A stretch of 35,995 bases of DNA, taken from positions 1 to 35,995 of IMG/VR virus record IMGVR_UViG_3300000553_004744; one strand, given 5' to 3'. The notes beneath the pieces are model-generated. The model ran no database searches, was not told the DNA's origin, and saw nothing but the letters and a program-made list of their open reading frames with translations. The stretch's first letter is position 1. Every line of letters starts with the position of its first letter. The position numbers and the translations under genes are program-made. Shown piece after piece: positions 15,293 to 35,995 of this stretch. This DNA comes from a virus.

Positions 15293-16237
15293 TTAATTCA
15301 GGCGGGCAGTTTTCCATTTTTCATAGGTATCCATAGAGACAATTGTCCGATCTATCTGATTACGCCTATAGCGGTACTCCAAGCCCTTAAATTGCTGTAT
15401 CATCGTGCAATGGCAATGAATATCCTCTTCGGCAATACCACTTAAACCCGGCCCGGGGGTCTTTACCCCGGAAGGAAGGGTAAAAACATTATTAACCGCC
15501 GCCTTCATATCCATTCGTATATGCCCCGGGCGCGGCACCTTTGCTCTGTTAGAGTGTATCCATAGGAGTTGCACCTCTATTCCAAGATTTGCAGCTGCAT
15601 TTTCTACCCTGCTAAAAGATGAGAGAGCACCTGCATTCTGCACCCGGTGTGCTTCTGTCTGCACTATAAGAGAGGCTTTTGAAGCGGCAATATTCGTTTT
15701 ATCCGTTATTGCCTTAGCAATTTTTACATAACCTTTTCCCTGAATAAGGCCCTGTGTTATTTCCGTTCTTATCTGCTGGTTAAGCTGTTGTATATGCCCG
15801 CTGAATCTTTCGGGCCATGTAATGCGGTCAAGTGAATTAAGAACCGATGCTTCAATTGTTTTTTCATTAAGCAACCCGAAACCTAATTTTGCGCCAATAG
15901 AGGTTTCAAGAACAAAACCTGTGTAATAATAATTTTCTGAATAAATTTCTTTAATAGCTTCTTTTATGGTTTTAATTCCCTGCACATTCAGTTTTTTAAG
16001 TATTTGAGCTATTTGATATTCCAGATTAGTCAAACGGTTATATGCAACCATATCGGGAAATTTAATATCCGTTCCATATTTTTCATACATCTTTGCAATC
16101 TGCAGGCGTATTTCATCAAGAGCTTTTTTATAATTTTCAATAAGCGTTTTCCTGAAACCGGCCAATAATTTATCGGTATTAGTTCCAGCTTTAGAAAGAA
16201 GTTGAGCTATATATTTGTTCCATTCATCATCGTTCAT
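15293..16237 (-). CDS. MuF-like minor head protein
   Basis: 314 residues, start ATG 16237 overlapping the portal gene by 4 bases. The C-terminal region has the Mu F/SPP1 gp7 signature: 'ASLIVQTEAHRVQNAGALSS', 'LLWIHSNRAKVPRPGHIRMD' and the 'DIHCHC' metal-like motif. These proteins sit inside the head attached to the portal and may be ejected with the DNA. No toxin domain is fused to the C-terminus. Its stop codon borders the hairpin of the repeated regulatory element. Confidence 0.87.
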   Translation of the reverse strand: MNDDEWNKYIAQLLSKAGTNTDKLLAGFRKTLIENYKKALDEIRLQIAKMYEKYGTDIKFPDMVAYNRLTNLEYQIAQILKKLNVQGIKTIKEAIKEIYSENYYYTGFVLETSIGAKLGFGLLNEKTIEASVLNSLDRITWPERFSGHIQQLNQQIRTEITQGLIQGKGYVKIAKAITDKTNIAASKASLIVQTEAHRVQNAGALSSFSRVENAAANLGIEVQLLWIHSNRAKVPRPGHIRMDMKAAVNNVFTLPSGVKTPGPGLSGIAEEDIHCHCTMIQQFKGLEYRYRRNQIDRTIVSMDTYEKWKTARLN

Positions 16238-17676
16238 TGAGCATTCCCCGCATCAAGGTTTATATTCCTATTTGCCCGCTCTGTTTCTAAATCTTTAACA
16301 GCATCATCAACATTTTTTATCCAAGGATGGTTTGCTAAAATTATTTTCTCAGGAATTATACCAAGTGAATTCTGGCAATTGGTTATTTGCTCGGTCTCAT
16401 TGATGAGCATATTCTTACTGAACGTTATTTCCAAATCCGCTTCATTAAAAACAAAACTAGGTTCTTCAAAAAATAATTTCCATTTTATGAGTTCGCTTAT
16501 TACATCCTCAAGGCGGTTGATTAAAGCATTTGCTTTAATGTCCAGTCGCATATATTGCGACTTGATTACAACTGTAACGATATTTCCCCCTTTCTGGTCT
16601 TTATCGAAATTCAATCCATGGCCGAACTTGTAAATATTTTCCTCAATTATTTCGAGTAGTTTAACTTTTGCCTCTACCGGAATTTCCAGAGTATGCGGCG
16701 TTACGTGTCCCTCTTCCGAAACCTTAATAGCTTTGAACTTCCGGAGGTTCGTCATAAATTCTGCAAGTTTTTCTCCCGCATAGCCGCCGAGCTCCCAAAT
16801 TGCATCCTGTATATCTTCAATGTTGTTTGCGAAACCGGAAAAAATAAGATCATAGAGGTCTATAAGGCCTTTAATAGGTTTTAGATCAGTAAATCCGTTA
16901 TTGTTATTCGAAAGTTTTATAAATGGAGGCACACCCCAGCTTTTACCTTCTGATGAAAGCACTTCCTCTCCCATTTTTTGTGATACCACCCAATGAGGGC
17001 GGGGGTTGGGGTTTTCAGATGCATCGGGAATAAATTCTCCTTTATCATTTTCGATGTAAAAGTAAACCAAATCCTTTGTCCAAATTTCTACTTTCAACTT
17101 CTGAGTAAGTTTTCCCACATCATCAATGCTGTCGACTTTGTAATATCGCAAGATGCTTATTAAATTGTTTTTATATGTATCATCATAATCGGGAATTATT
17201 TCCTCTGCAGGGATGATAATATAATCGAACTCCCCTTTATCATTGATGAAGAAATGAAGCCATTCTTCCCCTTTGTTTGAGGCATTAGTAGCAAGGTCTG
17301 TAAGGGTGCGCCTGAAATATTTATCTTGCAACTCTTTAATTTTTGCTCCTAGGGTTGTATTTTTAGAAGCAATGCTAATCTGATTGGTAAGAATGTACTC
17401 TATTTTTTGATCTACCAATTCAGCGTGAAACGAATTAGGCACTTTATTATTCGAAGCATTCGGATCCAATTCTTCTTTTCCGTCAACGATGTATTTACGG
17501 AAATCCCGTTTCATAATATCATGCTTGCTTTTATAATAATTAATGCCGTCCAGCATGTCATTTTTTTTCTCTGACCTAATATCCCGGTCTATAATGCCGC
17601 GAATAAGTTTGGAGTCGGAAATTATTTTTTCAACTGCTATTTTTAATAATATCTGTTCTGTTTGCCCGAAATACAT
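16234..17676 (-). CDS. Portal protein (SPP1 gp6-like)
   Basis: 480 residues, typical for SPP1/HK97-type portals. Recognisable parts are 'NKVPNSFHAELVDQKIEYIL' (N-terminal wing), 'EWLHFFINDKGEFDYIIIPA', the 'FANNIEDIQDAIWELGGYAG' region and 'LEDVISELIKWKLF' near the clip/stem. It forms the dodecameric ring at one head vertex through which the terminase pumps DNA. It lies 10 bases after TerL and overlaps the MuF gene by 4 bases, standard packaging order. Confidence 0.88.
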   Translation of the reverse strand: MYFGQTEQILLKIAVEKIISDSKLIRGIIDRDIRSEKKNDMLDGINYYKSKHDIMKRDFRKYIVDGKEELDPNASNNKVPNSFHAELVDQKIEYILTNQISIASKNTTLGAKIKELQDKYFRRTLTDLATNASNKGEEWLHFFINDKGEFDYIIIPAEEIIPDYDDTYKNNLISILRYYKVDSIDDVGKLTQKLKVEIWTKDLVYFYIENDKGEFIPDASENPNPRPHWVVSQKMGEEVLSSEGKSWGVPPFIKLSNNNNGFTDLKPIKGLIDLYDLIFSGFANNIEDIQDAIWELGGYAGEKLAEFMTNLRKFKAIKVSEEGHVTPHTLEIPVEAKVKLLEIIEENIYKFGHGLNFDKDQKGGNIVTVVIKSQYMRLDIKANALINRLEDVISELIKWKLFFEEPSFVFNEADLEITFSKNMLINETEQITNCQNSLGIIPEKIILANHPWIKNVDDAVKDLETERANRNINLDAGNAQ

Positions 17677-17686
17677 TTTTATACCT

Positions 17687-19120
17687 TTAAGTTAATATTT
17701 CAATTGAATTCTTTTTATTTATAGTTTCCGCTACGCCTGTAGTTGCATCAGGCGCATCGTCGTGTTTATTCTTTCCTTCTTTCTGATAGGTGGACATGGC
17801 TTTATAATATCCCGGCCATTTATCTTTCCAATTGACCGGGAAATAAATATGATTTTGTACAAATGATGAGTTGGTTAAAATGCGGGAAATCTTGTTATCG
17901 GATTGATGGAACCATTTTACCATTGTTCTTCTTGTTTTATGGATTTCCCAAAGCAGCCTTTCAACATTACGCGCAAAGCCCCGCCCTCCATTATTACTCT
18001 CAATAATTGCGCTAGTTACACTATCTTCATTCAGCATTTTAGCTGTCTCAGGTTCAGTAAATTCCATTGGCTCTTTGGTATAGAGGATATTTAAAATATA
18101 TGCCTCTCCTTGATAGACGCCATAATTTATTGAACAAAGATAATCAGCACCTTCGTCGGCTGTATCTGTATAATTTTTTATTGATTCAAATAAAATTTTT
18201 CCTTTTTCATCGCGCGGGTAATCTGTATAGGTTTTGAAGGATTGGTATAAACGGCCCTTGAGATCAATTGGTTCATTCTGATAATTCGCAAGAAAGATTT
18301 CCATCATCATCATGCTCTTGAGGGTTTCATAGCGCGATTTGTTTAATAACTCCGGGCAAAGCATTGAATTGGTTTTTTCATCATAAGCCTTCATAGATAG
18401 GACATACCAATCATTTGCTTTTTCCCCGGCGAGAATCCTGCCACATAGATCGTTCTTTGACCAACGTGTCATTACAGTAATTTCAAGTGGTTCACCCCCT
18501 TTGGCACTTACACGTGAAAGGAAAGTACTTGTATACCATTTCCAAATATTATCAAGGGCATTTTCATTCATGGCTACTTCTGCTGATTTTATGGGATCGT
18601 CTATAATTAATATTGTGCCCCCTTTACCAGTTATACTTCCACCAATTCCGGCACCAAGATAATTGAAATGCTGATCTTCCAATGCCCATTCGTCATAGGC
18701 GGCATTGCCTTGTTTTATTTTTGTTTCAGGGAATATATCGGAAAAAACTATTTCGTCTTCAAGTTTCTTTTCCTGAATACCATCGCGGGTATAGCGTGAA
18801 AAATCATGGGCGGCATTATCGTTATAAGAACATGATATTATTCTTTCTTCATTGTTTTTACCTAAAACCCATTGGCAGAATTTTATTAAAGTTCTTGATT
18901 TTCCATGCTGAGGAGGCATATTAATCATAATTTTTTTATAAGGAGTTCCGTCAGGTTTTAATAATTGGCCTGTATACAAACAATGTAATATATTACATAA
19001 CTCTTGCAGATGAGTCCTTTCCTGCAAATAAAATTCCGGAGAAGTTAACGAGCAATAGTCATAGAACAGGCGGCGTGCCAATTCAAGATAGGCCTCGTTA
19101 CTGAGGTGTTTTATTTCCAT
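17687..19120 (-). CDS. Terminase large subunit
   Basis: 477 residues from ATG 19120 (a TTG at 19138 would add six). ATPase motifs are clear: Walker A 'MPPQHGKS' at 68-75, Walker B 'TILIIDDP' at 169-176, and the coupling motif 'TVMTRWS' near 215-221. The C-terminal half carries the RNase H-like nuclease with acidic residues in 'DTADEGADYLCSINYGVYQG', 'SAIIESNNGG' and 'HDDAPDA'. The enzyme cuts concatemeric DNA and powers its packaging through the portal. Head-full type P22/SPP1-like relatives are likely. Overlaps the small subunit gene by 23 bases. Confidence 0.93.
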   Translation of the reverse strand: MEIKHLSNEAYLELARRLFYDYCSLTSPEFYLQERTHLQELCNILHCLYTGQLLKPDGTPYKKIMINMPPQHGKSRTLIKFCQWVLGKNNEERIISCSYNDNAAHDFSRYTRDGIQEKKLEDEIVFSDIFPETKIKQGNAAYDEWALEDQHFNYLGAGIGGSITGKGGTILIIDDPIKSAEVAMNENALDNIWKWYTSTFLSRVSAKGGEPLEITVMTRWSKNDLCGRILAGEKANDWYVLSMKAYDEKTNSMLCPELLNKSRYETLKSMMMMEIFLANYQNEPIDLKGRLYQSFKTYTDYPRDEKGKILFESIKNYTDTADEGADYLCSINYGVYQGEAYILNILYTKEPMEFTEPETAKMLNEDSVTSAIIESNNGGRGFARNVERLLWEIHKTRRTMVKWFHQSDNKISRILTNSSFVQNHIYFPVNWKDKWPGYYKAMSTYQKEGKNKHDDAPDATTGVAETINKKNSIEILT

Positions 19121-19610
19121 CTCTGATAAATTGTGCAAGGGCTCTTAATTCCTCTATTGTTAATTTTGATAAATCAGGTTTTGTATTAACATTTGCATTT
19201 ATATTCAATTCGTCAATGTATAAGCCATTAAGTTTATCTCTGTCTTTTGCAACTTCAAGCGCCAATTTTAAATCAGCAACTAAAATTAAATTTCCTTTAT
19301 CGTCTCTTAGGTCTTTATTAAAAATAAATGACGGACTAATTGCTTTCATATATAAAAATTCTCTATCTCTGATAGCTTTAGTAAAAGCAATATTTTTATC
19401 CTTCTGTCCTAATTTTCGTATTTCTTTTTTTGCTTCTCCAATATACCGCTGTGCCGTCCTTATTGATATTGAGAATTGGGTCATTACAATATTGCATAAT
19501 TCTTTATTCCTTTTGGATTGCAAATACCTATCGTTCTCAAGAATGAGTTTAATAATCCCATCAACCCGGACCCAAACAATATCAGTATGTTCCGTATCGG
19601 CCTTTGGCAT
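19098..19610 (-). CDS. Terminase small subunit
   Basis: 170 residues immediately before TerL. An N-terminal HTH-like region is seen in 'MTQFSISIRTAQRYIGEAKK', followed by a long helical centre ('ADLKLALEVAKDRDKLNGLY') and the C-terminal 'LSKLTIEELRALAQFI' that often ends small terminases. It should recognise the pac/cos region and recruit TerL. Its start overlaps the glycosyltransferase stop by one base, linking packaging to the upstream DNA-modification-type genes. Confidence 0.82.
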   Translation of the reverse strand: MPKADTEHTDIVWVRVDGIIKLILENDRYLQSKRNKELCNIVMTQFSISIRTAQRYIGEAKKEIRKLGQKDKNIAFTKAIRDREFLYMKAISPSFIFNKDLRDDKGNLILVADLKLALEVAKDRDKLNGLYIDELNINANVNTKPDLSKLTIEELRALAQFIRDGNKTPQ

Positions 19611-20512
19611 TATTGCATTTCCTGCTTATTATGATATTCTTCATAAAGTTTATTTAATACCTGGCTTTTTACATCCTTAACTTTTACCAGTGTCATTCCA
19701 TATTCATTTGGTTCTAATTTATCCCAATCAATGTCCGGACGCCTATTTAACGGAGTCTTAAAATCTCTCCATTGATTTTTTATTACATGCTGGGGCCGCC
19801 CAAAGCGCCATTTGGTCTCAACAATTCCAGGCCGCATTTCTTCCAGTGAACGTGCCATTTTCAATCTTCCATCGCCTTTATACAAAGCATCTGAATTACC
19901 TCCTTTCATAGTCATGGTGCGAATTTTCTTTATCATGAAGGCATTGATAAGTACTGTACACCAATTATTCGTAAGCACTTGTAGGCATAAGTCTGTATCT
20001 TCGTTATATCTTAAGCGCCAGCGATACGGCAAATCATTTAATATTAAGAGTGATGAATAAACATGGCAATTCAAAGTAAAAGGCGTTCTATTTTGTGTGC
20101 ATGGTAAAAACATTTCATAATTAAATCCGGATATTGCAATGTTTGTATATCGGTCGGTAAAATCTTCCACTACTTTCATGGCAATATTTGCATTACAGCG
20201 GATCTTCATATTTTTATATCGGCGTGCAATCCATGAAATATTGTCGTCGAAAATCCAATGGCGTTTATGACCTGTAGATTTTGCATGTTCCCACACCCAG
20301 TTACGTGCAGGCATTCCACCAAGTCCCAGATTTGAAAAAGGTAAAATCAAAACTCGGTCGCCGAATTCTTTCCGGTATAATTCCTCTTCTTGCGGTTCAA
20401 CTACTAATTTGAAATCAACATTATCGGAAATAAAAAACTTAGCAGTCAAGCAACAATCATGACGGCCTTTCGAAATGATATAAACGGGATATTTTGGCTT
20501 AACTGTTTTCAT
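19610..20512 (-). CDS. TET-associated-type glycosyltransferase (TAGT-like)
   Basis: 300 residues from ATG 20512 (an earlier TTG at 20524 is possible). Motifs fit the TAGT family of phage glycosyltransferases linked to modified DNA bases: 'YPVYIISKGRHD' at 9-19, 'FKLVVEPQEE' at 34-43, 'ARNWVWEHA' at 69-77, the acidic nucleotide-sugar site 'WIFDDN' at 86-91, 'RYNEDTDLCLQ' at 168-178 and 'KWRFGRPQHV' at 234-243. It would transfer a sugar from a nucleotide sugar, presumably to a hydroxylated base. No TET/JBP enzyme or hydroxymethylase is encoded here, so the acceptor is unknown. It lies between a ParB-like gene and TerS, with overlaps to both, so it is made with the packaging proteins. Confidence 0.75.
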   Translation of the reverse strand: MKTVKPKYPVYIISKGRHDCCLTAKFFISDNVDFKLVVEPQEEELYRKEFGDRVLILPFSNLGLGGMPARNWVWEHAKSTGHKRHWIFDDNISWIARRYKNMKIRCNANIAMKVVEDFTDRYTNIAISGFNYEMFLPCTQNRTPFTLNCHVYSSLLILNDLPYRWRLRYNEDTDLCLQVLTNNWCTVLINAFMIKKIRTMTMKGGNSDALYKGDGRLKMARSLEEMRPGIVETKWRFGRPQHVIKNQWRDFKTPLNRRPDIDWDKLEPNEYGMTLVKVKDVKSQVLNKLYEEYHNKQEMQ

Positions 20513-21164
20513 GATCCGATTCAAATTTTAATGAGGCTAAATCGTTTTGAATTCTTACTGGCCAGCGTATAGATAAAACTTTACCCTTTTTTATGAAACC
20601 GGTTTCAACGTTGATCATTTCTAAAAAAGCTTTACGATTCTCTTCATCTTCGAAAAGCACAACTAACCGGATGGGTTCTAAACCGTCTTCATAAAGAGGC
20701 AAGCCTTGCCATTCATCTTGGTGGTTTATAAAATTAACTTTATCGCTATTAAGTGAAGTTGGAATGCTTATTTCATTTATACGAAGAGTAGCTGCGAGAT
20801 CGGGAGTTTTTAAGTTTATTTCATTTATTAAGAGTTTTAACTCAGAAGTAAATTCGCCTTGTAATTTTGGATTATTCGCGGCAATATTAGCTGCCTTTTC
20901 CTTCTGTTCGTCCCAGTTAACTATGCGAATTGAAAATTCACCAATTGGAGTTATGATCTTTTCATTTACGATTTGGCACTCACCGAATTTAGCAGTCAAG
21001 GCTTTCACACGTTGGTGACCGGCTACTAAATTACCTGTGCGTTGATTAAAAACAATTCCCGAAATATCTCCAAACTCTTCAAGGCTGAATTTTAACCCTT
21101 CAAAAGCCGAACCCGTAATTAATCTTGGATTGTATGGTGCGGGATTTAAATCTGTAAGTTTCAT
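20499..21164 (-). CDS. ParB-like protein
   Basis: 221 residues. The N-terminal ~100 residues are a ParB/sulfiredoxin-fold domain: 'LNPAPYNPRLITGSAFEGLK', then 'VAGHQRVKAL' with GHQR at 49-52 (ParB box II). No HTH or ParB dimer domain follows; the C-terminus ('LRLVVLFEDEENRKAFLEMI') is of another type. Single-domain ParB proteins of phages occur next to DNA methylases and base-modifying enzymes and some have CTPase, nuclease or ATPase activity. Here it overlaps the glycosyltransferase gene, suggesting a shared pathway acting on phage DNA before packaging (inference). It overlaps the small HTH gene upstream by 4 bases. Confidence 0.82.
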   Translation of the reverse strand: MKLTDLNPAPYNPRLITGSAFEGLKFSLEEFGDISGIVFNQRTGNLVAGHQRVKALTAKFGECQIVNEKIITPIGEFSIRIVNWDEQKEKAANIAANNPKLQGEFTSELKLLINEINLKTPDLAATLRINEISIPTSLNSDKVNFINHQDEWQGLPLYEDGLEPIRLVVLFEDEENRKAFLEMINVETGFIKKGKVLSIRWPVRIQNDLASLKFESDHENS

Positions 21165-21391
21165 TTCTTTTTCCCATATAAAATAAATTCAATATTTTTA
21201 ATTGACATGTTATATTCCTCTGCCAATTGCTCACGGGCTTTTTTACCCGGAATTTGCTGTTTTCTTTTTTCTTCATATTCAAATTTTATCCTGAAATTAC
21301 GGCAAGCATTTACAGGCGCAAAACCATGCTTACTAAATACGGTTAACAAATCTGCCATCATTTCTTTTGTTATAGAATCAGTATCATTCAT
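21161..21391 (-). CDS. Small HTH-like protein heading the packaging operon
   Basis: 76 residues with GGAG before ATG 21391. The C-terminal half, 'GKKAREQLAEEYNMSIKNIE' then 'FILYGKKK', reads as a helix-turn-helix similar to Mor/C-type activators, though too short for a full Mor protein. It is the first gene downstream of the hairpin-promoter element at 21406-21453 and overlaps the ParB-like gene by 4 bases. It may regulate late transcription or help the terminase, neither shown. Confidence 0.6.
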   Translation of the reverse strand: MNDTDSITKEMMADLLTVFSKHGFAPVNACRNFRIKFEYEEKRKQQIPGKKAREQLAEEYNMSIKNIEFILYGKKK

Positions 21392-23976: not shown

Positions 23977-24732
23977 TTAAAAGAGGACGAGTTGTTCTTC
24001 TTCTGAATAAATTTTTATTTCGGGAATTGTTACTTCCGGTGGTTCTTCTGTTTTTACTTCAGTAAGTACTTCTTTCAGATCCAGAAACATTAAACGAAAT
24101 TGGAAATTATTGAGGAAGTAAACCGGGGTAAATAAATTTTTATATTGTGTCATTCGTAAAGTATCACCATGAATAACTTTTGCCGCAATTCCATAGAGGC
24201 TTATTTGGATATAGGCCATATAAAAGCAGAGTTCATCAATATCAGTCAATTCAACATACATTTGAGTTGAAGGATTAAGCTTCTTTTCGAGAAATACCTC
24301 CCGGCAGGCAATGATCATTCCACCGGATCCGCAAGCTGGTTCACCGATTGTTATAAGAGGCTTCTCCTGGAGTTCCCTATCAATATCGTGAAGTGTCATT
24401 TTTGCAGACATTAACGAAACGTTGTAGGGTGTAAAGAATTGGCCAGCCCGGTCATTGGTTAAATTATTTTCTCCGAAAAATTCACCTAAGAAATCCGTAT
24501 GTGATGTTTCGAGAGCATCAGTTAAGATTTCAAAACAGTTGTCGAATGCCTTCAATTTCTTTTTATCTTCACCGAAGTTGAATTCCTTCAATTTTTGTGC
24601 AGCTAATTCCGGATAAAAAGGCAGAGCAAGTGCGTATGTTGCTGATTGACAAAAGTCGCGGAATTTGGTATATAAATTTTCGCCGTAATTATAATTTTCT
24701 AATTCCTTGAGGAAATCCTTTTTATGGTTCAT
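23977..24732 (-). CDS. HsdM-like N6-adenine methyltransferase domain lacking motif IV
   Basis: 251 residues. It has the type I M-subunit features 'NDRAGQFFTPYNVSLMSA' at 93-110, the SAM-binding motif I 'EPACGSGGM' at 131-139, 'ELTDIDELCFYMAYIQISLY' at 161-180 and 'VIHGDTL' at 186-192. The catalytic [ND]PP[YF] that should follow HGDTL is absent: the chain reads MTQYKNLFTPVYFLNN and ends about 60 residues later. Related phage/plasmid proteins share this truncation. It may bind SAM or target DNA or antagonise a host enzyme rather than methylate. It overlaps the SymE-like gene by 4 bases. Confidence 0.75.
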   Translation of the reverse strand: MNHKKDFLKELENYNYGENLYTKFRDFCQSATYALALPFYPELAAQKLKEFNFGEDKKKLKAFDNCFEILTDALETSHTDFLGEFFGENNLTNDRAGQFFTPYNVSLMSAKMTLHDIDRELQEKPLITIGEPACGSGGMIIACREVFLEKKLNPSTQMYVELTDIDELCFYMAYIQISLYGIAAKVIHGDTLRMTQYKNLFTPVYFLNNFQFRLMFLDLKEVLTEVKTEEPPEVTIPEIKIYSEEEQLVLF

Positions 24733-26988: not shown

Positions 26989-27690
26989 CTAATATACTAG
27001 TACCGGAATACCGGTTAGTTTTTCAATTTCAATTTTGAATAGTTCTGCGTTACTATTGCGGTTGCTCAGGTGGATTAAAAAGATTTTTCTAACATCAGAA
27101 AGGTTATTCGTTTTCATGAACCCCTTAACATTTTCAAGGCTAAAATGAGATTTAAGCAATCGCTTAACCTGCATTTTGTCCACAACTCCTTTTTGCAAAT
27201 TATCATTAACAATCTCACGGCAATAATTACATTCTATCATTATGTAATTAAGCCCGCTGAATTTGTAGTGGATATAATAAGTGTCAGTTGCAAAAAGCAG
27301 TTTCCCGAATTCCTCATGATGAATTAAAAAGCCTAACGGCTCTTTAGCATCATGCTGAGTAGAAAATGGAAGGATTGTAAATCCTCCCGTACTAAATTGT
27401 TTGCCGGATTCAATTACTTTTATTCTGTGGTGTTCAACTGCAAGACTTTCAATTGTACCTTTACTTGTGAATACATTTATTCCTGCTTTCAAAACATTCC
27501 TAATAGAGGAACTGTGGTCGTTATGCTCATGTGAAACTAAACATCCGGCCACATCTTTTATTCTGAAATTTAACCCGGCAATTATTTTCGCGTAAGAAAC
27601 CCCGCACTCAATAATCAGAGTTTCCTTTGCGGTTTTCAAAAGATAAGAATTACCTGAGCTGCCGCTCGCTATGGATTTAATCTCAAACAT
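26989..27690 (-). CDS. MBL-fold metallo-hydrolase of the recombination block
   Basis: 233 residues. Metallo-beta-lactamase motifs: 'SHEHNDHS' with H54, H56, D58 and H59, then H113 (STQHDAK), D136 (LFATDT), H182 and 'IHLSNRN' at 206-212. The layout and 'ASGSSGNSYLL' start resemble YycJ/WalJ-type nucleases. It follows RecT with a one-base TAATG overlap. With the zinc-hook ATPase and RecT upstream it may be the nuclease of a phage recombination system, taking the place of RecE/exonuclease (inference). Confidence 0.8.
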   Translation of the reverse strand: MFEIKSIASGSSGNSYLLKTAKETLIIECGVSYAKIIAGLNFRIKDVAGCLVSHEHNDHSSSIRNVLKAGINVFTSKGTIESLAVEHHRIKVIESGKQFSTGGFTILPFSTQHDAKEPLGFLIHHEEFGKLLFATDTYYIHYKFSGLNYIMIECNYCREIVNDNLQKGVVDKMQVKRLLKSHFSLENVKGFMKTNNLSDVRKIFLIHLSNRNSNAELFKIEIEKLTGIPVLVY

Positions 27691-28772
27691 TAAAAAGGCG
27701 CCTTCTTATTTGTACCTTTAGTGTCCGATTGTAATGTTGAAGTATTTCCTCTTAACTCTTTTAATTTTATTGAGATCGCATCTTCTATGTGAACAGCAGT
27801 TCTTCCGCCGAATGAATCAAGCCTATTTTTATTATTATTTATAAAATTGTTGAAAGCTGCCAAATCAGAAAATGATTCAATTTTTGCAACTATAGTAATT
27901 GGGTTTTCCCAATCAATTGCACTTAAATCGGTTGATTCGTTCTGAGGAGGAAGGTTAATATCAATTTCTTGTTTATTAGCCTGATCTTCTATTTCAGAAG
28001 CAATAGAACTTTCTTCAATAATTGGAGTATCGTCCATATCTTCCATATCAGTAGTTCTATTAATTGTGTCAATCAGCAAATCACTATCGTCGGATGTATT
28101 CCAGAATGTTTTGCAAGCTCTGTTGATCACAGATTTTTTAGCCATTTCATCAGTAAATTTTAGATGAGCCTTGGATTCGCCTTTCGCTGCTCCCTGTTCC
28201 CATGCCGCACGAATTTGTTTTATATTCATTATCTCAACAAACGGAGGCATCCCTTCGCGGATAATTATTGCATAAGCACCGAGTATTTTTGCCGTATCGA
28301 TGTTCGTAAATTTCTGATTATGCTTAATTATTTTCTTCAATCCGGTTTCAAGATCAAAGGTGTATTCAAACTCATCACCTTCATAAATACAGTTGGCAAA
28401 TATGTCTTTAACGGTTTTGATTCTTTTTGTAACGGCTATAGTGCCCATGTAAGAACGTGTTAATTGCAATTGGTTTCCATAAGCAATGAAATAGCATTGT
28501 TTTTTGGCCGGGGATAAACCCTGAATGATCATATCCAATAATGTGTTAGCAACGGATTCTTTTGTACAAACCTGAAGAACAGCTCTTTTCTCTTTATCGA
28601 AGGTATTCTGTAAGATCAGCCAGGCTGATTTCAGAGCATTTGCCGCACTGTAATTTTTCGGTATTTGCAGGCCGCCGCTTTTTTCCAAATCGCCAACGCG
28701 CATTAAAACATTGTCTGCAATGTTTTTTTCTGATAAAATTACTTTATTCTGAGTATTATTATTATTTTCCAT
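27690..28772 (-). CDS. recT: RecT single-strand annealing protein
   Basis: 360 residues. The RecT core is visible: 'NALKSAWLILQNTFDKEKRA', 'SVANTLLDMIIQGLSPAKKQ', 'CYFIAYGNQLQLTRSYMGTI' and 'EMAKKSVINRACKTFWNTSD'. The C-terminal ~100 residues are acidic and flexible, with a likely partner-binding end 'DTKGTNKKAPF'. It anneals single strands during phage replication and recombination. It directly abuts the ATPase gene and overlaps the MBL gene. Confidence 0.9.
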   Translation of the reverse strand: MENNNNTQNKVILSEKNIADNVLMRVGDLEKSGGLQIPKNYSAANALKSAWLILQNTFDKEKRAVLQVCTKESVANTLLDMIIQGLSPAKKQCYFIAYGNQLQLTRSYMGTIAVTKRIKTVKDIFANCIYEGDEFEYTFDLETGLKKIIKHNQKFTNIDTAKILGAYAIIIREGMPPFVEIMNIKQIRAAWEQGAAKGESKAHLKFTDEMAKKSVINRACKTFWNTSDDSDLLIDTINRTTDMEDMDDTPIIEESSIASEIEDQANKQEIDINLPPQNESTDLSAIDWENPITIVAKIESFSDLAAFNNFINNNKNRLDSFGGRTAVHIEDAISIKLKELRGNTSTLQSDTKGTNKKAPF

Positions 28773-30710
28773 TTATGCCACCTTTAATTTTTTGTCTTTT
28801 GAAACTATTAAGTTAATTACCTGTGCTTGTGTTTCTATTATGTCATTTATCGATTCCCTGTTATCAATAAATAACGGTGCTGTTATTTGGAAGTGCTCAG
28901 AGAGCGTGTTAATGATGTCTATTCCGGCATTTATTTTTGCTGCATTGTTTGCATCAGCAAAAGGGACACCATTGATCAGAGGCTCACATATTTCTTGAAT
29001 GCCGCCGTTTATTAAATTTTCAAACAGCTTGAATTTCACATACTTGAATTTTGCGTTAATCATTTCTTCAAGCATTCCTACCTTTGTTTTGATGAATTTA
29101 TCGCTTAGGTATTCCTGGCCTTCAAGCTCAGCAATTTGCCCTGCTAAATTTCTTTCCTGTTCTTCTAACTCCTTTATACGGGCGCGTGATAAATCGTTTG
29201 TATCTTTTTGCCTTAATTCTAATTTCAAAGAATCAATTTCGGCTTGCAATCCTTTCTTTTCAGCGTTTAATATTTCTACAATATTTTCGGAATTTTTTAC
29301 CATGGTATTTTCAAAGAGTTCTTTTTCCAATGTTGCTGATTCAGCAATTAATTCTGAGTATAGGTCACCGTATTGTGGTTTTGATGTTATAATCTGTTCA
29401 TTAAGTGAAGTTATTTCCAGTTGCAAAGCTTCAATATTCTTTGAAGATGTATTAATTCCATTGGAATGCGAGGTGATCTGATTTCCTATTTGTTCTTTTC
29501 GTGTTTTATAGCCATTACCCCGGACAGATATTTTATCCAACTCTTTGGCTTTCTGCAGATTGAAATTTTCCTGCATCTCTGTTTTTTTCTTTTCAATATC
29601 AATGGCATCTAATAGACGGTTGCATGTAGGACAAATGAATTGATCAGTAATGATGAATTCCTTTCCTTGAGTATCAATCCATTCGTTTCTGCATTTCTCA
29701 ATATCCGCCTCAAGGCTGATAGATTCGGTTTCTAAATTCGCTATTTGATCCTGGTGTGAACTGAGTTTTGCCCGTTCAGTTCTAATCTCCCCTTCTTTTA
29801 TATTTATTTTGGAATTAAGATCAGCGATTTGCTTATTAAAAAGGGAGTCGGCTTTAAGTTTAATATTAGCAATTTCATTATTCAACGTTTTATATTGCCT
29901 TTCTTTTTCAGCCCGTTCCGGATCTATTTTTAGATGAGATGTTATTAGTTGCTCAATTTCATTTACCCGGTTAACTTTTATCTTCAATTGCGATGTCATA
30001 GAATTGAAATCAAGCTCTTTAATTGATTTGTAGCATTCATCAATACGAACCGGAATTCCTTTAAGGTCATCATTAAGCTTTTTCTTCTTGTTGGCCAGCA
30101 TCTTACGCACTTTATCAATGTCATTCTCTACATTTAGGAGCTCAATTAAAGGGGCTAATTCCCTGTGCGTATTGATTATATCTGCACTCGAAATGCTTCC
30201 TTTCATAGCAAAAAGAATATTTCTCCGGTCTTGCCATTTGAGCTTTTGTGAAAAATAAAGAGGGTCGGTTATAAGCTTAAAGATATTCTCATCGGCAAAC
30301 TCGTTTATTTGTTTTTTATAATCGGTCTGAGAGTATGGAATGTCATTTATGTAAAATAGAGTTTCATTGCCGGTAAAGATTTCTTTTGCCTCGCCGCGTT
30401 TCTTAGTCCATTTTTCTTTAAATATTTTCTGAAGGGTTTTCTTTGTTCCGTCAACAAACAAAGTACCAGTCACTGTGTGCTCAATGCCATGGATAGGCAG
30501 ATTATCAATGCTAAGTGTTTTTATCTCAAAATCTTTTCTATCTGATGAATCTTTATCAAATAGCAGCCAATAAAAACCATCGGCAATTGTAGTTTTACCT
30601 GTTGCATTTTCGCCATATACATTTGTTATTTTATTAAAATCAATTTGCAAGCTCCTAATGCCTTTGAAATTCTCAAATGACAATGAGGAAAGTTCAATTC
30701 TTTTCATCAT
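28773..30710 (-). CDS. Zinc-hook SMC/Rad50-like ATPase
   Basis: 645 residues with AGGAGG before ATG 30710. Walker A 'GENATGKTT' at 33-41 follows 'LSFENFKGIRSLQIDFNKIT'. Coiled coil runs either side of a zinc hook 'CPTC' at 360-363. The C-terminus contains 'APLFIDNRESIND', a Walker B-like strand with Asp and Glu. It is shorter than SbcC (~1000 aa), with no SbcD partner; the neighbouring MBL protein may be its nuclease. ATP-driven DNA end processing feeding RecT is the likely role. Confidence 0.83.
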   Translation of the reverse strand: MMKRIELSSLSFENFKGIRSLQIDFNKITNVYGENATGKTTIADGFYWLLFDKDSSDRKDFEIKTLSIDNLPIHGIEHTVTGTLFVDGTKKTLQKIFKEKWTKKRGEAKEIFTGNETLFYINDIPYSQTDYKKQINEFADENIFKLITDPLYFSQKLKWQDRRNILFAMKGSISSADIINTHRELAPLIELLNVENDIDKVRKMLANKKKKLNDDLKGIPVRIDECYKSIKELDFNSMTSQLKIKVNRVNEIEQLITSHLKIDPERAEKERQYKTLNNEIANIKLKADSLFNKQIADLNSKINIKEGEIRTERAKLSSHQDQIANLETESISLEADIEKCRNEWIDTQGKEFIITDQFICPTCNRLLDAIDIEKKKTEMQENFNLQKAKELDKISVRGNGYKTRKEQIGNQITSHSNGINTSSKNIEALQLEITSLNEQIITSKPQYGDLYSELIAESATLEKELFENTMVKNSENIVEILNAEKKGLQAEIDSLKLELRQKDTNDLSRARIKELEEQERNLAGQIAELEGQEYLSDKFIKTKVGMLEEMINAKFKYVKFKLFENLINGGIQEICEPLINGVPFADANNAAKINAGIDIINTLSEHFQITAPLFIDNRESINDIIETQAQVINLIVSKDKKLKVA

Positions 30711-34756: not shown

Positions 34757-35995
34757 ATGCCTTCAATATATCCACAGAAGAAAAGTCCCTTTTATTGGAT
34801 CAGATATTATGATAAAAACGAATCTGACCCTAATAAGCGCCGCAAGGCATTTAACACAAAAATAAATATCACGCCTGGGGATCTCCGGAGAATTACAGAC
34901 AGGAAAAAGGGAGAACCCCTTAAATTACAGGGTACATCCGAACTGAAGAAAATGTTATCTGAATTTAAAAGCGGCCTTGCGCAGCTCCAGCTTGAGAACA
35001 AAACAGGTATCAAGTTAAAAAAGAGCCCATTACTTTCGGAAGGATTAAAAGAATATTTATTTTACAAACCTAATTTAAAACATAAAACTATTACTGCTTA
35101 TAATTATGCTGTTGATTTAATGATTATTGCATGTACAGATAAACTTATTGCCAAATATAAATACAAAGACTATATTCTACTCATAAGATATTGCAAAGAA
35201 TTAGTTCTAAATACTAAGAAAAAAGACAAAAAAGAAGATATTCAGCAGGATAAACAACCACATCCTCGTTATAACGAGACTTCAATTGCAATAATTACCC
35301 GGCATTTACATCCACTATGGAATTACTTTGTTAAACAGAAATATACCAATGATAATATTATTCAAAAAATAAAAACACCGAAGGGTATTCCCCATCCAAT
35401 TCCCGAAAAAGAACTCAGGCAAATCTTATTATATTATAAAGACAAAGGAATTAAAACTCAAAATAATGCAGTAAGATTTTTATTGCTTACAGGTTTACGT
35501 CCCTCCAGCGCAATTGCACAACAATGGGAATGGATTGATCTTGAGCAAGATATGATGACAGTCCTGAATGTTAAAGCAAACAGATTTTTTATTTTCCCAA
35601 TTCATTCAGAGTTAAAAAAGTTATTATTAGAAATTGGACCGAAGCCCAAAGGTACTTTGCTCGGATATAAGACAAAAGATTCATTAGACTTCTTTAATAG
35701 AGATATGTTCAAACTTCTCCGTTTCAATTTAATCACTTATAAATATTCATTATATAATTTACGAGATACTTTTGCAAGCTATTTAGCGAATAATAACCTT
35801 GATATGAGTAATGTTCAGGATTTACTTGATCATTCGGATGCAAAAATAACCCGGTATTATGCCGAAGTTAAAACAGGTTATTTGAAAAAAAAGATAGACA
35901 GCGCAAATTTCAAGGAATTGATTAGGCAGAGGCCGATGCAAGAAGAGATTCAGGATGATATAGAAGATATGCTAAAGAAAGAAAAAGGTGCCTAA
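34757..35995 (+). CDS. Tyrosine-family integrase
   Basis: 412 residues ending exactly at the window edge. Arm-binding start 'SPFYWIRYYD', SAM-like core-binding domain (about 90-200), then the catalytic domain: R248 in 'TGLRPSS', Lys near 273, 'YNLRDTFASYL' with R336, H359 in 'LLDHSD' and nucleophile Tyr 368 in 'ITRYYAEV'. The usual box II His (HxLR) is Tyr 333. It integrates and, with an excisionase, excises the prophage. The attachment site is expected just beyond this end. Confidence 0.9.
   Translation: MPSIYPQKKSPFYWIRYYDKNESDPNKRRKAFNTKINITPGDLRRITDRKKGEPLKLQGTSELKKMLSEFKSGLAQLQLENKTGIKLKKSPLLSEGLKEYLFYKPNLKHKTITAYNYAVDLMIIACTDKLIAKYKYKDYILLIRYCKELVLNTKKKDKKEDIQQDKQPHPRYNETSIAIITRHLHPLWNYFVKQKYTNDNIIQKIKTPKGIPHPIPEKELRQILLYYKDKGIKTQNNAVRFLLLTGLRPSSAIAQQWEWIDLEQDMMTVLNVKANRFFIFPIHSELKKLLLEIGPKPKGTLLGYKTKDSLDFFNRDMFKLLRFNLITYKYSLYNLRDTFASYLANNNLDMSNVQDLLDHSDAKITRYYAEVKTGYLKKKIDSANFKELIRQRPMQEEIQDDIEDMLKKEKGA

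Follow-up and report, generated by a model that had tools for sequence, protein, structure and literature searches.

A glycosyltransferase gene that overlaps the gene for a ParB-like protein, immediately ahead of the terminase genes of an uncultivated phage, raises the question of what the enzyme glycosylates and what a ParB-like protein contributes to the reaction. The window considered here is the whole linear IMG/VR record IMGVR_UViG_3300000553_004744 (35,995 nucleotides; such records are often fragments).

Glycosyltransferase and partner protein in the packaging operon

A minus-strand operon in the window runs from a 76-amino-acid (aa) ORF through the ParB-like gene, the gene for a glycosyltransferase of the "TET-associated" family (TAGT), a TerS candidate, TerL, and an SPP1-type portal to a Mu-F-like head protein, and comprises the following features:

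21161..21391, minus strand: 76-aa ORF, which overlaps the start of the partner gene by 4 nt
20499..21164, minus strand: partner protein of 221 aa, with a ParB/Srx-like N-terminus and a C-terminal TAGT-partner module (PHROGs 9353, 498, and 620; family profile; family alignment)
20805..21164, minus strand: ParB-like N-terminal domain of the partner, approximately residues 1–120, with GHQR (PHROG matches, family alignment, identity comparison)
20514..20720, minus strand: C-terminal TAGT-partner module, approximately residues 149–217, here DEWQGLP...SIRWP (homologous to the TAGT N-terminus of Aeh1, POP12, PTm1, and phage 65)
19610..20512, minus strand: TAGT glycosyltransferase of 300 aa, predicted GT-A fold (PF20691, PHROG_842, AlphaFold2 and Foldseek, invariant motifs)
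19098..19610, minus strand: TerS candidate of 170 aa (position and size; no family match)
17687..19138, minus strand: TerL (PHROG_30251, E = 1.5e-152)
16234..17676, minus strand: SPP1-type portal (PF05133, E = 9e-75)

Reading the sequence confirmed the single overlapping operon that a preliminary description had proposed for the ParB-like gene, TAGT, and TerS. The ParB-like stop codon (20499–20501) lies inside the TAGT gene, whose ATG is at 20512 (an overlap of 14 nt), and within TAATG at 19610 one base is common to the TAGT stop and the TerS start; counted from its first gene, the operon thus begins with overlaps of 4, 14, and 1 nt. Elsewhere in the same phage, an early DNA-metabolism cluster includes an N6-type DNA methyltransferase, an MBL-fold hydrolase (PHROG_392), RecT, and SbcC-like genes (23977–24732, 26989–27690, and 27690–30710, all on the minus strand). 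A phage integrase ORF (34757–35995, plus strand) stops exactly on the last base of the record, which suggests a trimmed provirus and hence a phage that is probably temperate.

The identification of the enzyme as a TAGT-type glycosyltransferase was upheld by a profile search of 19610–20512, which matched PF20691 over its full length (1–205/205, E = 1e-45) with a score of 156.7 bits, where the cut-off is 27.5, and by a match to PHROG_842 (E = 1.5e-37). The motifs pointed out previously, WIFDDN and EDTD (here within NEDTD), map to alignment columns that do not vary across the relatives (D89, D90, N91, D172, and D174). Membership in PF20691 is genuine, and in itself ordinary. An AlphaFold2 model (pLDDT 87.7) adopts a GT-A fold, and its top Foldseek matches are GT-A enzymes, including the peptide S-glycosyltransferase SunS and the wall-teichoic-acid enzyme TarP. 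The model thus predicts a GT-A enzyme in which a DxD-like metal/donor motif and a catalytic acidic motif are conserved.

The partner protein proved more complex than the ParB-like protein with GHQR that had been described: the N-terminal half is ParB-like and GHQR is present, but a second, C-terminal domain (approximately 20514–20720) had been missed. Profile searches of 20499–21164 gave matches to PHROGs 9353 (4e-27), 498 (1e-19; the ParB-type N-terminus of a DNA methyltransferase), and 620 (1.5e-19; ParB-like), and a profile of the partner family matched the structures of Spo0J, ParB, and Noc (6sdk, E = 1.9e-9). The window protein itself, however, had no Pfam match at E ≤ 0.1, including to PF02195, which its relatives do match. 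On these profile matches, the N-terminal half is predicted to belong to the ParB/Srx superfamily. Canonical ParB motifs are poorly kept: the arginine of GHxR is found in 27 of 92 ParB-type partners and an ENxQR-like motif in none of the 92. A canonical CTPase clamp (GERRxRA and ENxQR motifs) was rejected on this basis, and the loss of the nucleotide motifs favors use as a binding or adaptor domain over a partition-type CTPase. No ParA ATPase was found among the annotated neighbors. The AlphaFold2 model of this protein was weak (pLDDT 60), and structural claims from it were dropped. The window ParB part shares only approximately 20% identity with the commoner ParB version of relatives, compared with approximately 60% for TAGT, suggesting exchange of the N-terminal domain; a search with the window's own partner protein recovered a single relative because its ParB version is unusual.

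Family alignment splits these proteins into the ParB-like N-terminus and a C-terminal module of approximately 65 aa (EWxGMPEF...F...D...F...SIWFP), whose invariant tryptophan is W152 in the window protein. The module proteins tested belong to no Pfam family, and modeling gave no confident structure for the module. Our literature search returned no description of the module or of a ParB-TAGT-terminase cassette, part of which the original TET/TAGT comparative-genomics work may mention. When the module alone was compared with cultured phages by tblastn, it matched only the N-termini of TAGTs (Aeh1, Ah1, phiAS5, POP12, PTm1, and relatives), and the module HMM scored 49.7 bits on the TAGT N-terminus of Aeh1, 48 on that of POP12, 34 on that of phage 65, and 30 on that of PTm1. 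Separate and fused versions find each other by HMM (hhalign probability 99.1%), and fusions to TAGT also occur in uncultivated phages (L024, L037, and L100). The module occurs in three arrangements: it can end a ParB-like protein, stand by itself, or be joined to TAGT. It appears to be an undescribed and constant partner of TAGT, with the ParB domain as an optional N-terminal addition.

Module-TAGT pairing and its genomic contexts

A first scan recovered 25 loci with TAGT identities of 48%–65%, and a profile scan recovered at least 584 viral relatives, of which 80 were kept; 12 relatives were found in metagenome-assembled bacterial or archaeal genomes. Matches among cultured phages were few (24 of 50,697 records) and all below 40% identity, so that, within these collections, all members of the close clade come from uncultivated viruses and MAGs. 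Six-frame HMM searches placed a ParB/module gene upstream of TAGT, on the same strand and within 1.5 kb, at 102 of 106 loci, and when loci were instead selected by the module alone, TAGT lay within 2.5 kb in 79 of 80; both sets consist of best-scoring relatives rather than random draws, so these rates are strong but not unbiased. The exceptions in the first set comprise two loci cut by a contig edge (L022 and L026), one with the module just downstream (L043), and L010, in which the scoring fell on a second TAGT copy and the main copy does have a ParB/module partner; in the remaining module-selected locus, the contig ends 23 nt after the module. The two genes usually overlap among relatives. 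Across 50 non-redundant pairs, median identity was 57% for TAGT, 49% for the ParB part (with a low tail), and 35% for the module. The module-TAGT pairing is close to certain, and the earlier view of the ParB-like gene as a conserved neighbor of TAGT was well founded.

Some TAGT genes depart from the usual arrangement. That of L019 (9178–10065; G018:C1:53654–54256) contains an in-frame TGA, possibly reflecting stop-codon reassignment, readthrough, or decay. Second or tandem copies occur in L008 (2924–4657, fused in one 577-aa ORF), L010, L100, and G027 (L049), and by analogy with the T-even TAGT could build a disaccharide.

Cassettes were divided into class A (ParB plus module, scored by at least 125 residues before the module, a criterion that also admits a few proteins with an N-terminus of doubtful ParB identity, e.g., L035) and class B (stand-alone module, mostly of approximately 75–120 aa). 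None of the module-only cassettes has the ParB domain. Where a locus extends 3 kb or more downstream, TerL falls within 5 kb in 67 of 81 class A cases (median gap 482 nt), compared with 3 of 28 for class B, a contrast with a Fisher P of 1e-11 between classes that are not phylogenetically independent. Class B neighbors include SF2 and UvrD helicases, VRR-NUC, an MT-A70 methyltransferase, NinB, a PolA-UDG fusion, and a clamp loader. The TAGT tree contains approximately seven changes of ParB state, with terminase association in at least two separated clades; a ParB-terminase association was not significant after correction for ancestry, which left only two well-supported independent pairs. The coupling of TAGT to packaging suggested for the window thus extends to the ParB versions but is not general, as the module-only versions are mostly in replication or recombination clusters.

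Comparison of neighborhoods found the terminase context repeatedly, in phages whose downstream TerL genes fall into at least four classes (Terminase_6, HK97-type, Terminase_3, and GpA), such that distinct packaging lineages carry the cassette at one position, immediately ahead of TerS. The window TerL is 49%–55% identical to those of Geobacillus phage GBK2 and Clostridioides and Streptococcus phages. These cultured phages are not among the 24 cultured records with TAGT, which suggests that the cassette was acquired in the window's lineage.

Neighboring genes hint at the sugar. Of 92 class A cassettes, 21 (about a fifth) have a gene for a short-chain dehydrogenase/reductase (SDR) nearby, whereas no such gene accompanies any of the 43 class B cassettes. 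The one member searched against the PDB (L016) is a UDP-glucuronate decarboxylase, an enzyme of UDP-xylose-synthase type (match to the human enzyme, E = 7e-121; next best family, 1e-42), and by eye most, though not all, of the SDR cluster resembles it. A class-I methyltransferase is near seven class A cassettes and one class B cassette, and a sulfotransferase is near two cassettes; none of these three gene types was seen in the window itself. These neighbors are consistent with the making and tailoring of a sugar. A radical-SAM gene (PF04055; L039 1541–2584) and two genes that are radical-SAM-like by eye (L036 8834–9814 and L002 1121–1930) are located between or beside the module and TAGT and could act on the sugar or on a base. 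In L072 (3–773), the gene directly upstream of TAGT also resembles a glycosyltransferase, of GT32 type as judged by eye.

The acceptor and competing explanations

Enzymes that might prepare DNA for glycosylation were sought in 52 uncultivated records (the window and 51 others, among them a 96-kb and a 334-kb contig; most are fragments). TET/JBP (PF12851) was not detected at the family cut-off in any of the 52, while the control, P12024L, was positive, and the thymidylate-synthase/dCMP-hydroxymethylase family PF00303 was likewise absent from all 52. The preliminary observation that the window carries neither a TET/JBP nor a thymidylate-synthase-fold gene therefore holds, and the classic hydroxymethylcytosine (hmC) or TET route finds no support in these 52 records. 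A partial, sub-threshold TET/JBP match in G034 (the L087 record; C1:2635–2817, 15 bits, E = 2e-4) was disregarded. C5-methylcytosine was rejected as a common precursor since a C5-methyltransferase (PF00145) was present in only 3 of 27 records tested. With no acceptor-making enzyme known in the family, the usual hydroxymethyl acceptor of TAGT is left unexplained. The name "TET-associated" is also misleading here, given the absence of TET/JBP from these records and the great distance that separates the window's clade from the TAGTs of T6 and of TET neighborhoods.

Characterized and cultured relatives place these results in context. The T-even (T2/T6) beta-glucosyl-HMC alpha-glucosyltransferase is likewise a phage enzyme of PF20691, and its GT-A prediction (PMC13216743) agrees with the window model, whereas the T6 TAGT is remote (38 bits to PF20691, on a very long branch) and has no module or ParB partner. 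Similarly, gp27 of Nonlabens phage P12024L is a PF20691 phage gene, but it lies beside a TET/JBP gene, is 24% identical to the window TAGT, and lacks the module. The closest cultured relatives (approximately 36%–39% identity) are the solitary TAGTs of Aeh1, phage 65, PTm1, POP12, Kuja, and Vibrio 1.076.O/1.124.O, which have the module in common with the window, but fused to the TAGT N-terminus; in the records inspected, no fused ParB was found and the genes are not directly beside the terminase, with that of Vibrio 1.076.O approximately 5 kb from TerL and beside the portal. Aeh1 (NC_005260 63453–64652) and similar records are annotated as beta-glucosyl-HMC-alpha-glucosyltransferase, yet Petrov et al. 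list gene 42, for dCMP-hydroxymethylase, as missing in Aeh1 and phage 65, and suggest that phages without the T4 modification genes probably have no major dCMP modification (PMC2993671). This label on module-bearing TAGTs is likely an error of annotation transfer, and a sparse or unusual DNA modification in Aeh1 and phage 65 may still be compatible with that report.

We consider DNA the probable acceptor of the sugar, in preference to protein, because both cassette classes lie among DNA-handling genes, because DNA-modifying enzymes are often accompanied by ParB domains (PMC12783734), and because the characterized T-even TAGT acts on DNA, where it puts glucose onto glucosylated hmC (PMC13216743, PMC13390438). 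For example, ParB-domain proteins linked or fused to phage DNA methyltransferases (PHROG_498; ParBc near CmoX, PMC12783734) pair a ParB/Srx-type domain with a DNA-modifying enzyme, as is probably the case in the window. The window ParB differs from those of ParB-methyltransferase systems in that it carries the TAGT-partner module and its partner enzyme is a glycosyltransferase.

The mechanism we propose is a two-component DNA glycosyltransferase that is guided by ParB in the packaging operon; taken as a whole, with its late timing, it has about an even chance of being correct. Points that weigh against it are the missing acceptor-making enzyme, the lack of gene 42 in Aeh1 and phage 65 although their TAGTs bear the module, the poorly kept ParB motifs and weak ParB model, the few independent changes behind the ParB-terminase link, and the fragmentary state of most records. 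TAGT would be the catalytic subunit, a GT-A enzyme probably using a UDP-sugar, and would form the working core together with its obligate partner, the approximately 65-aa module, which may hold TAGT or present the acceptor. The exchangeable ParB-like domain, probably a binder and not a canonical CTPase, would bring the enzyme to DNA. Phage DNA would then be glycosylated at the late stage of infection at which the terminase operon is active, and the genomic context is in line with the earlier suggestion of modification just before encapsidation. The mark on packaged DNA may block host nucleases. In relatives with their own UDP-xylose synthase, the sugar could be xylose or another pentose, possibly O-methylated or sulfated afterwards. 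A more specific form, which we regard as rather unlikely, is that the ParB-guided enzyme and its obligate module, at packaging, link a sugar directly to unmodified DNA, or to a base modification of a new kind, without prior hydroxymethylation or oxidation, using a pentose in some lineages.

The main rival, a serious one even if the odds are against it, is protein glycosylation by the pair, with a component of the virion or of the packaging machinery (such as capsid, portal, or terminase) as the likeliest substrate, the location of the pair reflecting co-expression with that substrate and ParB acting as a scaffold. SunS and TarP among the structural matches, a cassette within a late structural operon, and a family without an acceptor-base enzyme would all suit a protein acceptor, and capsid glycosylation has been suggested for a mycobacteriophage with two glycosyltransferases (PMC11256854). 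However, most module-only cassettes are in replication clusters, away from the structural operon, and the usual partner in the packaging context is a DNA-binding-like domain. Moreover, Che8, a relative of the capsid-glycosylation suspect, has no PF20691 match and Myrna has only a sub-threshold one (16 bits), so the virion-glycosylating enzymes of mycobacteriophages were rejected as members of the same family. The classic acceptor route, in which 5-hydroxymethylated bases come from the host or from a phage gene too distant to be on the recovered fragments, seems improbable. It has precedents in the T6 TAGT, which acts on glucosyl-hmC and adjoins a thymidylate-synthase-fold gene (PMC13216743), and in the TET neighbor of the P12024L gene, and the fragmentary state of many records is in its favor; on the other hand, both precedents are remote TAGTs without the module, PF12851 and PF00303 are missing even from the two long contigs, and Aeh1 and phage 65 have no gene 42.

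Two further explanations were weighed. TAGT might mark phage DNA while a ParB-like nuclease attacks unmarked host or rival DNA, similar to restriction-modification, given that ParB/Srx-fold domains can be nucleases (Osa, ParB-methylase, and GmrS; PMC5512222) and that the cassette lies among DNA-handling genes. We hold this to be highly improbable, as the active-site arginine is kept in fewer than a third of ParB-type partners, class B cassettes have no ParB domain at all, and fusion of ParB to the TAGT-partner module suits targeting better than an independent nuclease. Modification of the host surface is a role of many phage glycosyltransferases. Here, alteration of lipopolysaccharide or teichoic acid against superinfection, with the ParB gene as a mere operon neighbor, would accord with TarP among the structural neighbors and with the integrase of a probably temperate phage. 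The near-invariant coupling to a ParB-linked module, the terminase or replication context, and cassettes in which we noticed no gene for a membrane or lipid-carrier partner leave it only a very slight chance.

Significance for the TAGT family

The TAGT family was already known, and a 2026 study found TAGT without known partner glucosyltransferases in 288 of 753 phage genomes, which it called potential novel transferases (PMC13216743). What is new here is the near-obligate partner module, the ParB/terminase version of the cassette, and the lack of a known acceptor route. Part of the family can now be given a specific partner, a context (packaging with ParB, replication without it), and a candidate donor pathway. 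Should the acceptor prove to be DNA, the cassette would represent a route to sugar-coated DNA that does not pass through hydroxymethylcytosine. Whichever acceptor holds, cultured phages now allow the question to be tested directly.
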